Shown here piece after piece: positions 6,644 to 26,434 of a stretch of DNA of 34,086 bases. The position numbers were made by a program, and so were the translations under genes. Each line of letters opens with the position of its first letter. Position 1 is the first letter of the stretch. The notes beneath the pieces were generated by a model, which did no database searches, was not told where the DNA came from, and saw only the letters and a list, made by a program, of their open reading frames with translations. This stretch comes from Nitrospiraceae bacterium (GTDB lineage Bacteria > Nitrospirota > Thermodesulfovibrionia > UBA6902): the NCBI GenBank assembly GCA_003599505.1, contig QZKO01000008.1:1-34086 (forward strand), in the 5' to 3' direction.

Positions 6644-7240
6644 ATGGCAATTTCCACAGAAAAAAGAAATTCCGGGATAGCCTTAATCGGCGACGTGCCG
6701 TGGGGCACTCACTTCTGCCAGTTCTACACGACCAAGAAGGACCTGCTCGACATGCTGGTGCCTTATTTCAAGGCGGGACTGGAAAGCAACGAGTTCTGCA
6801 TGTGGGTCACATCAGAGCCTTTAAATGTTGAGGACGCGAAGAGGGCGATGAAAAAGGCCGTGCCGGGTTTTGAAGAGTACGTCAGGAAGGGCCAGATAGA
6901 GATCATACCGTATAACGAGTGGTACACAAAGGGCGGAAGCTTTAAAGAGAAAAGGGTGCTCAACGGCTGGGTGAGCAGGCTCAACACCGCGCTCAGGAAA
7001 GGTTTTGACGGCCTGAGGCTGACAGGCAACACCTTCTGGATTGAAAAGAAAGACTGGGACGCGTTTACAGACTATGAGGCTACTGTAAACAGCGTCCTCG
7101 GCAATTATAAGATGATCGCAATATGCACCTATTCGCTCAAGAAGTGCGGGGTCGTGGAGATCATGGACGTGGTCAGGAACCACGAGTTCGCCCTCGCCAT
7201 GAACCACGGCGAATGGCAGATGGTCAGCATGCCTCAATAG
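6644..7240 (+). CDS. Stand-alone MEDS domain sensory protein
   Basis: The ATG at 6644 has a strong Shine-Dalgarno site (AGGAGG, 6631-6636). The 198-aa product is a single MEDS (DcmR-like sensory) domain: it opens with GDVPWGTHFCQFY, continues with LVPYFKAGLESNEFCMWV and has the typical GFDGLRLTGNTFW and NHEFALAMNHGEWQM segments. The family is named from methanogen and methylotroph sensory proteins and is thought to bind a small ligand, with an unusual Rossmann/RecA-like fold. No output domain is attached. The next gene begins with a paralogous MEDS domain fused to a kinase, so this protein is likely a duplicated, detached input module. It could act as a ligand-bound regulator of the neighbouring kinase. 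No membrane segments or signal peptide are visible. Confidence 0.88.
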   Translation: MAISTEKRNSGIALIGDVPWGTHFCQFYTTKKDLLDMLVPYFKAGLESNEFCMWVTSEPLNVEDAKRAMKKAVPGFEEYVRKGQIEIIPYNEWYTKGGSFKEKRVLNGWVSRLNTALRKGFDGLRLTGNTFWIEKKDWDAFTDYEATVNSVLGNYKMIAICTYSLKKCGVVEIMDVVRNHEFALAMNHGEWQMVSMPQ

Positions 7241-7266
7241 GTCTTATAAGACCTATAAGACTTATA
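7239..7266 (+). repeat. 9-bp degenerate tandem repeat between MEDS genes
   Basis: Nonamers GTCTTATAA, GACCTATAA and GACTTATAA run from the stop codon of the MEDS gene directly into the ATG at 7267. AGGTCTTATAAGACCT is a perfect palindrome, so the element can also form a small hairpin. Confidence 0.75.
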
Positions 7267-9744
7267 ATGAAGACCTTTCACTCCGACAAACGCAAATCAG
7301 GCATCCCGATAATCGGCGACCTGCCGTGGGGCAGTCACTTTTGCCAGTTTTACCAGACGAAGAAGGACCTGCTTGATGTATTTGTCCCTTACGTTAAGGC
7401 GGGACTGGAGAACAATGAGTTTTGCGTATGGGTCACTTCAAGGGCGCTCGGGGCTGAGGATGTGAAGAGGGCCCTTAAGAAAGCCGTGCCCCATTTTGAA
7501 AAATATGCAAAGAACGGGCAGATACAGTTGGTCCCCTCCAGCCGTTGTCATGCAGTAAAGGGGCGGGATGCAAGAGGCAAGGGGCAAGAGAGCAAGGTCA
7601 TCGGCTCACTGGTTGATAAGGCCGTCTCCGGCGGTTTTGAGGGCCTCAGACTTGCTTGCGGCTCTTGCCTTACAAAGAAGGACGGCAAGGCCTTCACATG
7701 CGGGTCCGAAGTTATAAGCAAACATAACGCGCTCGCGGTCTTTGCATATCCCCGCGACAGGTTTGACGCGATCGGGCTTATGGAGGTCGTAAAGAACCAC
7801 CGGCTTGCCCTCCTGAAGAATGCGGGAAAGTGGGAAGTCCTCGAAAGCTCGGAGGCGCGCACCGTAAAGGACGCCCTGAAGAGGAGCGAGGAAAAGCTGC
7901 ACTCCCTCTTCAGATATATGTCTGAAGGGTTTGCCTATCACAGGATTGTGCTCGATGCGAAGGGGAAGCCCTGCGACTATATATTCCTTGAGGTCAACGA
8001 GGCCTTTGAGAGGCTAACCGGTCTTAAAGGGAAAGACGTCATCGGCAAAAAGGTAACGGAAGCCCTTCCCGGGATAGAGAAAGACCCCGCGGACTGGATA
8101 GGGAGATACGGCAAGGTCGCGCTGACCGGAAAGCCAGCGCAGTTTGAGAGCTGGTCAGGGCCGCTTAAACAGTGGTTTTCGATTTCCGCCTTCAGCCCTC
8201 ACAAGGGCTATTTCGCCGTGACCTTCAGTGACATTACGGAGCGCAAGCAATATGAAGATGAACTTATCCGCGCCAGAAAAGAGTGGGAGCGGACCTTCGA
8301 CAGCGTTCCCGACATGATAGCTCTCCTCGATAATAAACACCGGATCATGCGGGTCAACCGCGCAATGGCGGACAAATTGGGACTTAAGGCCGAAGAATGT
8401 ATCGGCCTGCCGTGCTACAAATACGTGCATGGTCTGTCGGCGCCGCCTGACTTCTGTCCCCATACATACACCCTGAAAGACGGCTGCCAGCATATGTTTC
8501 AATTAAATGAGGAAAGGCTCGGCGGCGACATGCTGGTCAGCACTACCCCGATTTTAAACGAACAGGGGGTGACAACCGGCTCCGTGCATGTGGCGAGAAA
8601 TATCTCCGAGCTGAAAAAGGCGGAGAAATCGCTCCGGTATACCCTTGATGAATTGCGGCAGAGTGAACAGCGTCTGAACAGGTCGCAGGAGATCGCCCAT
8701 CTCGGCAGTTGGGAGCTGGACCTCGTGAACAACCATCTGTACTGGTCTGATGAAGTCTACCGGATATTCGGCCTCAGGCCGCAGGAATTCGGCGCGTCCT
8801 ATGAAGCGTTCCTGGAAGTTGTGCACCCTGACGATCGCGCGGCAGTCGATGAAGCATATTCCGGATCGCTGCGCGAAGGAAGGGACAGCTACGAGATAGA
8901 GCACCGCATTGTGAGAAAGGCAACGGGCGAAGTAAGGACCGTCCATGAAAAATGCGAACATTCCAGAGACGGGCACGGCCGGATTATACGGTCCGCCGGG
9001 ATGGTCCATGACATAACTGAACGCAAGCAACTGGAAAAAGAGCGCGAAAGGCTGATTTCAGAGCTTGAGAGGTCTAACACAGAGCTGGAGCAGTTTGCCT
9101 ACATCGCTTCCCATGACCTTCAGGAGCCGCTCCGTATGGTCTCAAACTACGTGCAGCTTATCAGCAAGCGCTATAAAGACAGGCTGGACAGGGACGCCGA
9201 TGAGTTCATCGACTATGTGGTGAAAGGGACGGCCCATATGCAGACGCTCCTTAATGACCTCCTGACATACTCGCGGGCGGGTTCAGCCGCCGGGTCTTTT
9301 GCGCTGACCGACCTCAGCTCCGCGCTTAGCAGGGCGACTGTAAATCTCAAGCCCCTGATTGACGAAAGCCGCGCGGAAATAAGACATGAAGACCTTCCCG
9401 CCGTTTACGCTGATGAAGTGCAGATGGCCCAGATATTCCAGAACCTCATAAGCAATGCCATAAAGTTCCGGAGCAATGGACCGCCGCGTGTTAATATATC
9501 CGCGGACCTGGTGAATAACGAATGGATTGTCCGCGTCAGCGACAGCGGCATCGGGATCGACCCGAAATATTCTGAAAGGATATTTCACATATTCAAGCGT
9601 ATCCATTCGAGGGAAAAATATGAAGGCACCGGCATCGGCCTGGCAATATGCAAGAAGATAGTGGAAAGGCACGGCGGACGCATATGGGTTGAATCAGAGC
9701 CGGGGAAGGGCTCGACGTTTTGTTTTACGCTTAGGGTAAAATAA
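7267..9744 (+). CDS. MEDS-PAS-PAS-PAS hybrid sensor histidine kinase
   Basis: An in-frame GTG/ATG extension back to 7123 would overlap the upstream gene, so the ATG at 7267 (825 aa) is chosen because the MEDS fold starts at GDLPWGSHFCQFY. Domains are MEDS (1-190), PAS 1 (about 207-328), a Cys/His-containing PAS 2 (about 338-450) with CYKYVHGLSAPPDFCPH, PAS 3 of the PAS_3 type (about 465-588), HisKA (IASHDLQEPLRM, His616) and HATPase (about 715-825) with VSDSGIGID and GTGIGLAICKK. All catalytic kinase motifs are present. No membrane segments are seen, so it should be a cytoplasmic multi-input kinase. The start codon lies flush against a 9-bp repeat with no Shine-Dalgarno site. A purine-rich 7-bp repeat run lies in the MEDS linker at 7570-7597. 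The likely output is the single-domain receiver immediately downstream. Confidence 0.93.
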   Translation: MKTFHSDKRKSGIPIIGDLPWGSHFCQFYQTKKDLLDVFVPYVKAGLENNEFCVWVTSRALGAEDVKRALKKAVPHFEKYAKNGQIQLVPSSRCHAVKGRDARGKGQESKVIGSLVDKAVSGGFEGLRLACGSCLTKKDGKAFTCGSEVISKHNALAVFAYPRDRFDAIGLMEVVKNHRLALLKNAGKWEVLESSEARTVKDALKRSEEKLHSLFRYMSEGFAYHRIVLDAKGKPCDYIFLEVNEAFERLTGLKGKDVIGKKVTEALPGIEKDPADWIGRYGKVALTGKPAQFESWSGPLKQWFSISAFSPHKGYFAVTFSDITERKQYEDELIRARKEWERTFDSVPDMIALLDNKHRIMRVNRAMADKLGLKAEECIGLPCYKYVHGLSAPPDFCPHTYTLKDGCQHMFQLNEERLGGDMLVSTTPILNEQGVTTGSVHVARNISELKKAEKSLRYTLDELRQSEQRLNRSQEIAHLGSWELDLVNNHLYWSDEVYRIFGLRPQEFGASYEAFLEVVHPDDRAAVDEAYSGSLREGRDSYEIEHRIVRKATGEVRTVHEKCEHSRDGHGRIIRSAGMVHDITERKQLEKERERLISELERSNTELEQFAYIASHDLQEPLRMVSNYVQLISKRYKDRLDRDADEFIDYVVKGTAHMQTLLNDLLTYSRAGSAAGSFALTDLSSALSRATVNLKPLIDESRAEIRHEDLPAVYADEVQMAQIFQNLISNAIKFRSNGPPRVNISADLVNNEWIVRVSDSGIGIDPKYSERIFHIFKRIHSREKYEGTGIGLAICKKIVERHGGRIWVESEPGKGSTFCFTLRVK
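7570..7597 (+). repeat. 7-bp degenerate repeat inside MEDS coding region
   Basis: Heptamers GCAAGAG, GCAAGGG and GCAAGAG, then AGCAAGG, run in tandem. They encode a charged ARGKGQESK linker that differs from the aligned part of the upstream MEDS paralogue, so the repeat appears to have expanded in a tolerant loop. Confidence 0.5.
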
Positions 9745-16423: not shown

Positions 16424-16445
16424 GAAACGTAACCCGCGAGAAGCT

Positions 16446-16488
16446 CAAAAAGGCATCCCCATGAAACGGGATGCCTTTTTGATTTTTT
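16446..16488 (+). terminator. Rho-independent terminator after tusA
   Basis: A perfect 14-bp stem (16446-16459 with 16468-16481) contains AAAAAGGCATCCC and its complement around an 8-base loop, and is followed by a T-rich tail. The A-rich left arm gives a T run on the opposite strand, so it may also stop transcripts from the convergent ferredoxin gene. Confidence 0.92.
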
Positions 16489-19145: not shown

Positions 19146-19919
19146 ATGGTAGTAACTATGAAAGAGCTTCTGGAGGCCGGTGTGCATTTCGGGCACCAGG
19201 TCAAGCGCTGGAACCCCAAGATGAAAAAATATATTTTCGGACAGCGCAACGGCATCTATATTGTCGACCTTCAGAAGACGGTCAAGATGTTTGAAGACGC
19301 CTATAATTTTGTCAGGGACCTGTCCGGCAGGGGTGAGCGGGTCCTTTTTGTCGGCACAAAAAAGCAGGCGCAGGACGTAATTCTTGAAGAGGCGCAGCGT
19401 TCGCAGTCTTTTTATGTGAACCAGCGCTGGCTCGGGGGCATGCTGACAAACTTCACGACAGTAAAGCAGGGGATTGAAAAATTAAAGAAGATTGAGAAGA
19501 TGAAGGAGGACGGCACTTACGAGCTCCTTACGAAGAAAGAGGTTGCCAGATACGAGACCGAAAGGACCCGTCTTGAAAAGAACCTGAGCGGCGTAAAAGA
19601 AATGACAAACCTGCCGGGCGCTGTTTTTATCGTCGATCCCAGGAAAGAATCCATCGCGATTGCCGAAGCGCGGAAACTGTCGATTCCGGTAGTGGCGCTT
19701 GTCGACACCAACTGCGACCCTGACGCGGTGGATTATGTGATCCCCGGCAATGATGACGCTATCCGGTCGATAAAACTGATTACTTCGAAGATAGCTGAAG
19801 CGATCATTGAAGGGAAGAGCATACTGAGCAAGGCGGCGCAGCAGAGCGCCGAGCAGGCGGTGATTGAAGAAAAAGCTGCTGAAGATGAGAAACAGGAGAA
19901 GGAGGAAGTAACAGGATGA
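19146..19919 (+). CDS. rpsB: 30S ribosomal protein S2
   Basis: The 257-aa product is a complete S2: [66 protein letters not shown] and [11 protein letters not shown] are all family landmarks. A strong GAGGAGG precedes the ATG. The C-terminal tail beyond about residue 225 is Glu/Lys-rich and variable, as is usual. The stop overlaps the tsf start as ATGA (19916-19919), so the two genes are translationally coupled. S2 binds late in 30S assembly near the mRNA exit and S1 site. Confidence 0.98.
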
Positions 19920-20515
19920 ATATAACAGCAGACGCCGTAAAAGAATTAAGAGAACAGACCGGCGCGGGCATGATGGACTGCAAGAAAGCCCTTACCGAGG
20001 CGCAGGGTAACTTTGAGACTGCGCTGGATATATTGAGAAAAAAGGGGATCGCTTCAGCCACGAGGAAGGCCTCGCGGGAGGCCTCAGAGGGGCTCATAGG
20101 GTCGTATATCCATATGGGCAAGATCGGCGTCCTTGCGGAAGTTAACTGTGAAACCGATTTTGTCGCGAAGACGGCCGAGTTTCAGGAGTTTGTCAGGGAC
20201 CTTGCCATGCATATCGCCGCTTCAACCCCAGCGTACGTGAAGAGAGAGGACGTGCCTGCCGAAGTCGTTGAAAAGGAAAAAGTCATTTACGCTTCACAGA
20301 TAACCGGCAAGCCCCCGCAGGTCGTCGACAAGATAGTTGAAGGGAAGCTCGAGAAATATTATTCCGACACCTGTCTCATGGACCAGGTATTTGTAAAAGA
20401 CCCGGACCAGAAGAAAAAGATAAAAGACCTGGTGGTTGAAAAGATAGCCAAACTGGGAGAGAATATCATCATCAAGCGGTTTGTAAGATTTCAGTTGGGA
20501 GAGAAGGTAAATTAA
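19916..20515 (+). CDS. tsf: Elongation factor Ts (short form)
   Basis: EF-Ts exchanges GDP for GTP on EF-Tu. The 199-aa protein has the N-terminal UBA-like module with [16 protein letters not shown] and the core motif [10 protein letters not shown] that contacts EF-Tu. It ends in [16 protein letters not shown]. It is about 80 residues shorter than E. coli EF-Ts and resembles the compact form of Thermus and many other bacteria, which lacks the second core subdomain and coiled-coil insertion. It overlaps rpsB by 4 bases. A large inverted repeat starts right at its stop codon and separates it from pyrH. Confidence 0.97.
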
Positions 20516-20654
20516 CCACAGAGACACAGAGGCACGGAGAAGTAATAAAAAATCCGAAATTCGAATATCGAAATACGAAACAAATTCAAAATTCAAATTC
20601 GTATTTCGTGCTTCGAATTTAAGTATTTCTCTGTGTCTCAGTGACTCTGTGGTT
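20514..20654. repeat. Large nested inverted repeat between tsf and pyrH
   Basis: Outer 28-base arms (20514-20541 and 20627-20654, built on CCACAGAGACACAGAGG) match at 24 of 28 positions. An inner pair built on ATTCGAA...CGAAATACGAA (from about 20560) matches at 18 of 21, and the AT-rich centre repeats CAAATTC. Together they can fold into one long hairpin filling the gap. Similar CACAGAGAC- and TTCGAA-rich dispersed repeats are widespread in environmental bacterial genomes. Confidence 0.85.
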
Positions 20655-20663
20655 TGAAAAATT

Positions 20664-21377
20664 ATGAAAAAACCAAAATACAGAAGGGTCCTCCTGAAAC
20701 TGAGCGGGGAGGCCCTCATGGGCGACAAAAATTTCGGGATCGACCAGAAGATTGTGCAGTACATATCACGGGAGCTCAAGGGGATATCCAGGTCAGGCGT
20801 CCAGGTTGCCATTGTCATAGGAGGCGGCAACATATTCAGGGGACTCGAAGCGAGCGCTGAGGGCATGGAAAGGACCTCAGCCGACTACATGGGCATGCTG
20901 GCGACCGCGCTCAACGCCCTTGCGCTTCAGAACGCGCTGGAGAGGAACGGGATGCCCACAAGGGTTTTGTCGGCCATTGAAATGAGAGAGCTCGCCGAGC
21001 CTTATATCAGGAGAAGGGCCGTGAGGCATCTTGAAAAGGGACGGCTTGTCATATTCGCGTGCGGCACCGGCAACCCTTATTTCACTACCGACACGGCGGC
21101 GGCGCTGAGGGCCATGGAAATAGGGGCGGACGTAATCATGAAAGCTACAAAAGTCGACGGCGTCTATACGAGTGACCCGGTGAAAGACCCTTCCGCAAAG
21201 AAATTCAAGGAGATTACCTATATCGATGTCCTGAAGAAAAGGCTGAAGGTAATGGATTCCACCGCGATATCGCTTTGTATGGACAACAGACTTCCGATAA
21301 TAGTATTCAGCCTGATGAAAAGCGGCAACATCAAAAGAATTTTAGAGGGCAAAAAAGTAGGTACGCTGGTCGGATAA
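20664..21377 (+). CDS. pyrH: UMP kinase
   Basis: The 237-aa protein phosphorylates UMP to UDP in pyrimidine nucleotide synthesis, as an amino-acid-kinase-family hexamer. Landmarks are [55 protein letters not shown] and [14 protein letters not shown]. Length and motifs are normal. The start codon follows the large inverted repeat within 10 bases and has no Shine-Dalgarno site, so its translation may be affected by hairpin folding or depend on read-through from tsf. The frr gene follows after 10 bases. Confidence 0.97.
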
Positions 21378-24949: not shown

Positions 24950-26434
24950 ATGCCCGATCTTGAAAAGAAGTTGTATCAGCTTATCATCAGCAGAATTGAC
25001 GGGGAGAAACTTTCTTCGGCGCCGCACCGGCAACGGGCTTTTGAGCTTGCTGAAAAAGGGGTCGGCGGGTTCATTCTGTTCGGCGGCAGGAAGGATGAGG
25101 TGAAGAGTTTTATCGCAGGGCTTCAGTCCGTTTCCGAAATTCCTCTTTTTATCGCTTCAGACATTGAACGCGGAGCAGGGCAGCAGTTTGAGGGCGCGAC
25201 ACGGTTCCCTTTTCAGATGGCAGCGGCAGCGGCAACCGACAAAAATATGGCGGATGATGTGAAGGCGCTCCAGGACATGGTCAAGGCTATTGCCGATGAA
25301 GCTGCTGATATCGGGATCAATATGCCTCTCGTCCCTGTTCTGGATGTGAACGTAAATCCCGATAATCCGATTATCTGCACAAGGGCGTTTTCAGACAGGC
25401 CTGAAGAGGTCGCGTGGTTCGGCAGGATTTATATCAGGATACTTGAAGAATCAGGGCTGATAAGCTGCGCAAAGCACTTTCCCGGACACGGCGATACATC
25501 CGTTGATTCGCATATTTCGCTTCCCGTAATCTCAAAATCTGTTAAGGAGATAAAGGAAACGGATTTATTTCCATTCAACGAAGCTGTAAAAGCAGGAGTC
25601 GGCAGTATCATGATCGGCCATCTCGGCATCCCCGCGCTTGACGCACTGCCTGCCTCTCTTTCAAAAAAGGTGATCACGGGGTTACTGAGAAAAGAGCTCG
25701 GTTATGAAGGTCTTATTCTCACTGACGCGTTGAACATGAGCGCCCTGAAAGAGGTAGAGAACGTTCCCGCGAAATGCCTGAATGCGGGGGTTGATGTCCT
25801 GCTTCATCCGGCGGACGCGGATGCGGTTGTTGAGGAGCTTAAACAGGCTGTCGCTTCAGGAGAGCTTGAAGAAGAGAAGATCGATAGGGCGGTAGAAAGG
25901 ATTTTGAGGTACAGGAATAGGGTAGGGGCAATTCATGAATTGCCCCTGCAGGCTGAAAGTTACGCAGAACTTTCTCAACTGATCTTTGATAAATCCATTA
26001 CTCTCGTAAAGAATACGCCGGGATTGTTGCCGATAAAGAATACGCAAAATGTTTCTCTCGTATTTGCCGGCGATGAGAAGCTATACGGGACGTCGCCGCT
26101 CAGAGGCCTTGTGCCCGCAGGGCCGGGTTTAAAACCCGCCCCTGCAATCATCGCAGCGGTCTTCACAAACGTCGCCGCATGGAAAGGCAGTTCCGGGATA
26201 AGTGTAGAAGAGATACGCCGTATAAAAGAGCTGACAGGAAAATCACGTCAATCCATAGTCATATCATTCGGCAGCCCATATGTGCTGAGACACTTCCCGG
26301 AAGCCGGCGCGCTTATCGCCGCATATGATACGGCGGAACAGGCGCAGGTGTCTGTTATAAAATGTCTGAAGGGTGAAACCGGTTTTCAGGGCAGGCTGCC
26401 GGTCAAACTGGACTATGATGAAGATTCAGAGTGA
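24950..26434 (+). CDS. Glycoside hydrolase family 3, NagZ-like beta-N-acetylhexosaminidase
   Basis: The 494-aa protein has the GH3 barrel: GGFILFGGRKDEV, IASDIERGAGQQF and the NagZ loop KHFPGHGDTSVDSH, which supplies the His/Asp general acid unique to NagZ-type GH3, then LTDALNMSAL with the likely nucleophile Asp. In cells NagZ removes GlcNAc from anhydromuropeptides during cell-wall recycling. Beyond about residue 330 there is a C-terminal alpha/beta domain, so it is the longer two-domain type, as in Bacillus, not the 340-aa E. coli form. No signal peptide is seen. Two palindromic repeats lie in frame in this C-terminal part (25924-25947 and 26117-26145). An AmpG-type permease at 32867 belongs to the same pathway. 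The start appears leaderless. Confidence 0.9.
   Translation: MPDLEKKLYQLIISRIDGEKLSSAPHRQRAFELAEKGVGGFILFGGRKDEVKSFIAGLQSVSEIPLFIASDIERGAGQQFEGATRFPFQMAAAAATDKNMADDVKALQDMVKAIADEAADIGINMPLVPVLDVNVNPDNPIICTRAFSDRPEEVAWFGRIYIRILEESGLISCAKHFPGHGDTSVDSHISLPVISKSVKEIKETDLFPFNEAVKAGVGSIMIGHLGIPALDALPASLSKKVITGLLRKELGYEGLILTDALNMSALKEVENVPAKCLNAGVDVLLHPADADAVVEELKQAVASGELEEEKIDRAVERILRYRNRVGAIHELPLQAESYAELSQLIFDKSITLVKNTPGLLPIKNTQNVSLVFAGDEKLYGTSPLRGLVPAGPGLKPAPAIIAAVFTNVAAWKGSSGISVEEIRRIKELTGKSRQSIVISFGSPYVLRHFPEAGALIAAYDTAEQAQVSVIKCLKGETGFQGRLPVKLDYDEDSE
25924..25947. repeat. Perfect 24-bp palindrome in NagZ-like coding frame
   Basis: The palindrome has the half-site AGGGGCAATTCA and equals its own reverse complement over 24 bases. 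It encodes VGAIHELPLQ together with its flanks. That peptide is a recognisable translation of a dispersed GGGGCAATTCATGAATTGCC palindrome seen in many bacteria. Confidence 0.85.
26117..26145. repeat. 29-bp inverted repeat in NagZ-like coding frame
   Basis: Arms GCAGGGCCGGGTTT and AAACCCGCCCCTGC flank one central base and pair with one mismatch. It encodes PAGPGLKPAPA. The GC-rich arms with a TTTAAAA centre are of a different repeat family from the palindrome at 25924. Confidence 0.75.

Follow-up and report, generated by a model that had tools for sequence, protein, structure and literature searches.

Rickettsia palindromic elements (RPE-1, RPE-4 and RPE-6) are palindromic repeats that lie in frame in protein genes, where they are tolerated as extra peptide. 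The dispersed palindromic family described here, from a Nitrospiraceae bacterium with a Thermodesulfovibrionia-like genome (Nitrospirota), is like them in that a palindromic repeat is read in frame and tolerated as peptide, but it is set apart by description: RPEs reside in other hosts and RPE-1 insertions are longer, whereas the present host is non-rickettsial, the units code for ten residues and one copy is length-neutral. The other close parallel is provided by GTAG-tagged REPs, which are short, high-copy palindromes starting with GTAG (Di Nocera, De Gregorio and Rocco 2013, PMC3733652). Some of these GTAG/CGTC REPs lie in frame within genes, including those for replication, repair and tRNA synthetases, intragenic REP dimers occur, and two Xanthomonas recB genes carry REPs at about the same site (PMC3733652). 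Our family shares with them high-copy palindromes starting with GTAG and copies in frame within genes. In those REPs, however, GTAG stands unpaired as a tag at one end of the stem-loop, whereas here GTAG pairs with CTAC and the unit is symmetric. Moreover, GTAG REPs are mostly intergenic and often associated with RAYT genes, whereas about half of the sampled copies of our family lie inside genes and no such association was found.

The text of PMC3733652 mentions neither Nitrospira nor Thermodesulfovibrio. A literature search, conducted largely outside subscription papers, returned no paper on Nitrospirae or Thermodesulfovibrio and palindromic repeats, and text hits for the arm sequence were limited to primers and other sequences that are unrelated as judged by title. 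Intragenic REPs and RPEs are already known, and what appears new, no precedent having been found in the literature searched, is the Nitrospirota host, the length-neutral replacement of codons and the loop hotspot shared by several repeat families.

A dispersed family with two copies in a GH3 gene

The stretch of DNA analysed in this study (34,086 nucleotides; hereafter the window) contains an intact ORF of 494 amino acids on the plus strand at 24950-26434, which stays open through both repeats. The encoded protein matches the Pfam GH3 N-terminal domain at residues 4-320 (E 8e-77) and, weakly and below the Pfam cut-off, the C-terminal domain at residues 431-492. Its KHFPGHGDT..DSH motif and D259 are invariant across a 31-row alignment, and the best fold matches are the GH3 N-acetylglucosaminidases 3sql, 6k5j and B. 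subtilis NagZ (4gyj). With the barrel, the motif and the Asp nucleophile, the protein is predicted to be a GH3 beta-N-acetylglucosaminidase/NagZ-like enzyme, in agreement with the initial annotation, which had placed two in-frame palindromic repeats in a gene of this kind.

Copy 1, GTAGGGGCAATTCATGAATTGCCCCTGC, is a 28-bp unit at 25922-25949 (no strand assigned) that codes for VGAIHELPLQ (residues 325-334) and encloses the perfect 24-bp palindrome noted at the outset (25924-25947); in shuffled versions of the window, the expected number of matches to this 24-mer at up to 3 mismatches is 0.00. Copy 2, GCAGGGCCGGGTTTAAAACCCGCCCCTGC, lies 167 bp away at 26117-26145 (no strand assigned), close to the separation of about 170 bases first proposed, and codes for AGPGLKPAPA (residues 390-399); the 29-bp inverted repeat announced there is present, although it is decayed and imperfect (90% self-complementary). 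In an AlphaFold2 model built from 31 sequences (mean pLDDT 89), both peptides are coil. Copy 1 joins the last barrel helix (308-325) to the first C-terminal-domain helix (335-349), and copy 2 runs from helix 383-386 to strand 399-405, where the model, at low confidence (block mean pLDDT 64), places it in a surface loop. Thus, only copy 2 lies in the C-terminal domain, to which both had been assigned; copy 1 occupies the interdomain linker, with GH3_N ending at residue 320.

The initial annotation regarded the two repeats as unrelated. They share the same outer 8-nt complementary arms, GTAGGGGC...GCCCCTAC, and differ in a variable self-complementary core, and are therefore core variants of one multi-copy family with units of 27-30 bp; two independent repeat families in the GH3 gene are ruled out by the shared ends. 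Copy 1 is a single base away from the commonest 28-mer, and copy 2 a few bases, mainly in the left arm. The counting of palindromes elsewhere that had been suggested gave 28 exact loci for the pattern GTAGGGGCN{6,36}GCCCCTAC in the bacterium's own genome (G000; 2.64 Mb in 87 contigs), against 0 for the reversed pattern, and a search of this genome with the repeat region gave some sixty short matches. AATTCATGAATT is the commonest core, with GGGTTTTAAACCC, GACCCGCCGGGTC, GTATTGCAATAC and others as variants. All nine other members of the genus carry the family, with 2-71 exact loci each (reversed-pattern control 0-1), and the same exact-locus search found it in scattered members of the taxonomic family, order and class.

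These palindromes could instead be intragenic DNA or RNA elements, such as hairpins or gyrase or recombination sites, with the protein sequence as a by-product. Copy 1 would form a 12-bp RNA stem and the sequence around it gives a better fold than its shuffled versions do (z -2.35), but a fold score of that kind is expected for any palindrome. In addition, copy 2 is decayed, the cores are not conserved, and the majority of the orthologous genes have no palindrome at all, which makes this explanation very unlikely. An Rfam search gave no match, which speaks against a structured RNA family.

A replaced linker and a loop hotspot

To compare orthologues, we aligned 66 GH3 genes, taken full-length from relatives' genomes and from named Nitrospirota MAGs; those from the named genomes were found by an alignment-based scan, a single-protein scan having given none. 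At the protein level, the nearest relative has 74% identity, and it is from the orthologues that insertion is judged. Both repeats had been described as inserted. At site 1 no length has been added relative to the orthologues, and simple insertion is rejected for this site: the linker is 23 codons long in 48 of the 66 sequences, that of the window included, and is never shorter than 21. This shared length indicates that ten linker codons gave way to copy 1 with the length kept constant. The ten codons are 0-10% identical in amino acids to those of the repeat-less genus members, as against 69-75% in the barrel domain. VGAIHELPLQ is absent from site 1 in every orthologue except G002, where GTAGGAGCAATTCATGCATTGCCCCCGC is a decayed copy of the repeat DNA, and neither peptide was found in any repeat-less orthologue among the 66, so that no case emerged of the same peptide without palindromic DNA. 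Other palindromic sequence occupies site 1 in L136 and L120.

The ten codons of G000 and G002 are 70% identical in amino acids and 87% in DNA, which places them among the highest 9% of ten-codon windows although the linker is otherwise hypervariable. Such a value might be expected if the repeat peptides were selected and kept for protein function, for example as a docking or stabilising segment. Nevertheless, G002 already has amino-acid changes inside the repeat, the same peptides are found in unrelated enzymes, and at site 2 sequence, length and repeat family vary freely among species. Nearly all interior genic copies also use one frame, which would fit selection on the peptide, but this bias is explained by stop codons in the other frames (see below), and we regard a selected function as very unlikely.

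Site 2 is a hypervariable loop of which copy 2 makes up most. A family repeat occupies it in six genus members, lying at the same site and in the same frame in G002, G003, G005, G006 and G008; it is a double, composite unit in G002 and G005, a decayed copy in G003 and G006 and a perfect copy in G008, and it is absent in G004, G007 and G009. A single gain followed by a loss in G004 is possible, but the GH3-barrel tree is too weakly resolved to establish where site 2 gained or lost a repeat, and its scoring took G006, which has a decayed copy, as lacking the repeat. In G006 the GH3 gene is divided between two contigs, and short repeats are able to interrupt or misdirect assembly, so one might ask whether the repeat was stitched into the gene during metagenome assembly or binning. 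Against such an artefact, independent MAGs of other species hold diverged copies at the same site and in the same frame, and the ORF is open throughout. A 28-bp repeat is also shorter than the usual assembly k-mers. An artefact is thus extremely improbable.

More distant species carry other palindromes in the site-2 loop: CCCCCTTT..AAAGGGGG-type in L115, L142 and L145, CCCTCTCCCC..GGGGAGAGGG in L136, and a 33-bp palindrome with perfect arms, TATCGGGGACAGAATTGAATTCTGTCCCCGATA, in L123. The last contains GGGGACAG, which fits the GGGGWSAS consensus of the TIR-type repeats of TIRYT transposases (PMC3733652), a likeness that extends to this short consensus only, and belongs to a family other than the window's repeats. 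The 66 orthologous genes together hold 24 inverted repeats with arms of at least 10, and 9 of these lie within residues 381-400, a stretch that makes up about 5% of the sequence (1.3 expected, P 3e-6, with kinship only roughly allowed for); when three related genus copies are counted once, the figure is 7 of 22 (P 1e-4). Site 2 therefore looks like a hypervariable loop that several palindromic families from different Nitrospirota have colonised repeatedly.

A second repeat family, coding for KGGKGGF/PPLLKGGKGGL-type peptides, occupies loops in several conserved proteins of Nitrospirota MAGs; it is seen in L204, L206, L212 (queA), L249 (prmC) and the GH3 genes of L115, L142 and L145.

Genic copies, their reading frame and their spread

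Although the repeats had been called normally intergenic, about half of the sampled copies lie inside genes. In 400 kb of genome sampled without regard to repeats (crude ORF calling, coding fraction 0.88), 8 of 18 copies lay in the interior of ORFs 200 amino acids or longer, leuS, queA and a P-type ATPase gene among them (resampled control 0), 6 lay at the edges of genes or in ORFs that were short or uncertain, and 4 were intergenic; scaled from this sample, the genome would hold roughly a hundred copies. In-frame copies occur in aspS, queA, prmC, trpE, leuS and the gene for a P-type ATPase, which has three repeat-derived segments; for these copies some relatives have the repeat and some do not. 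The genes for a tetrapyrrole methylase fusion and an MMPL transporter carry in-frame copies too. In aspS, the same loop holds a copy in three relatives, and in other relatives unrelated sequence of near-equal length; in prmC, the loop with the repeat is the shortest of all compared; in the P-type ATPase, one copy, which is shared only with G031 of another genus, makes the protein 8-9 residues longer there than in most relatives, and a second repeat site is common to four species. Therefore, copies sometimes add length and at other times replace existing sequence. The ATPase copy VGAIHESPLQ is present in L044 (G000:C9) and L287 (G031) and absent from closer relatives, which points either to transfer of the gene or to insertions made independently at one site.

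Read on either strand, the palindrome has the same sequence. With the commonest core, GTA GGG GCA (VGAIHELPL) is the only stop-free frame, the others holding TAG or TGA, and surviving genic copies of that type therefore use GTA GGG GC.... In the scenario that we favour, palindrome copies would land within genes as well as between them, and a genic copy would persist only if the reading frame stays open and only where the linker or loop is exposed and nearly any sequence is tolerated. On this account copy 1 would have overwritten ten GH3 linker codons with no change of length, and copy 2 would fill most of a loop colonised again and again by several repeat families. The peptides are most likely tolerated, and presumably neutral, passengers with no new function. 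We give a probability of about 85% to this explanation as a whole, namely one dispersed family whose genic copies are kept where the frame is open and the loop permissive, and carried as passengers. The proposal that dispersed palindromic repeat DNA has become protein sequence is upheld by family membership, by frame, by the orthologues, by the loop position in the model and by recurrence in other genes.

The copies may be moved in trans by a single-strand-type (HUH) transposase or arise by replication-coupled hairpin copying. No clear excess of duplicated flanks was seen in 37 copies, which speaks against a classical MITE or transposition with target-site duplication. Four Y1_Tnp (HUH) genes are present in the bacterium's own genome, with 26 more loci in the genus, and no enrichment of palindromes was found beside them: a palindrome lies near only one of these 30 loci. 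The flanking of RAYT (Y1 transposase) genes by some REP copies is thus not a feature of this family, and RAYT-driven REPs are unsupported. It is possible, and we suggest it only tentatively, that repeat DNA is a lasting supply of loop sequence for conserved enzymes in this Nitrospirota lineage, that several unrelated palindromic families repeatedly overwrite, and do not just lengthen, the same permissive loops through copying that is length-neutral and duplication-free, and that much of the loop divergence between species is repeat turnover rather than point mutation.

Three other regions of the window hold repeat-like sequence. The spacer at 20516-20663, between the ORFs at 19916-20515 and 20664-21377, is made up of repeats nested in one another: CCACAGAGACACAGAG...CTCTGTGGTTT ends enclose an AAATTCGAATATCGAAATACGAA inverted repeat and CAAATTCAAAATTCAAATTC. 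At about 7573-7610, a repeat-like peptide, RDARGKGQESK, lies in frame in an 873-aa ORF (7123-9744), and RGKGQ-like peptides recur in other genes of the same genome (L044, L058 and L060). Finally, a perfect 15-bp inverted repeat with an 8-nt loop at 16445-16482, followed by T-rich sequence, resembles an ordinary intrinsic terminator hairpin.

Implications for loop evolution

The main interest of these observations is that the habit is lineage-wide, that it has loop hotspots and that one replacement is clearly length-neutral. Annotators and phylogeneticists should be aware that VGAIHELPL or VGAGFKPAPT in otherwise unrelated proteins indicates repeats, not homology. Loop sequence in this bacterium is often recycled repeat DNA rather than a record of protein ancestry. 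The present lineage, outside Rickettsia, has many conserved enzymes with dispersed repeats visible as protein, each copy being shared by some relatives and absent from others. Such a system can be used to ask by what route repeats get into genes, which reading frames and loops accept them, and whether recycled repeat DNA can feed the evolution of loops.
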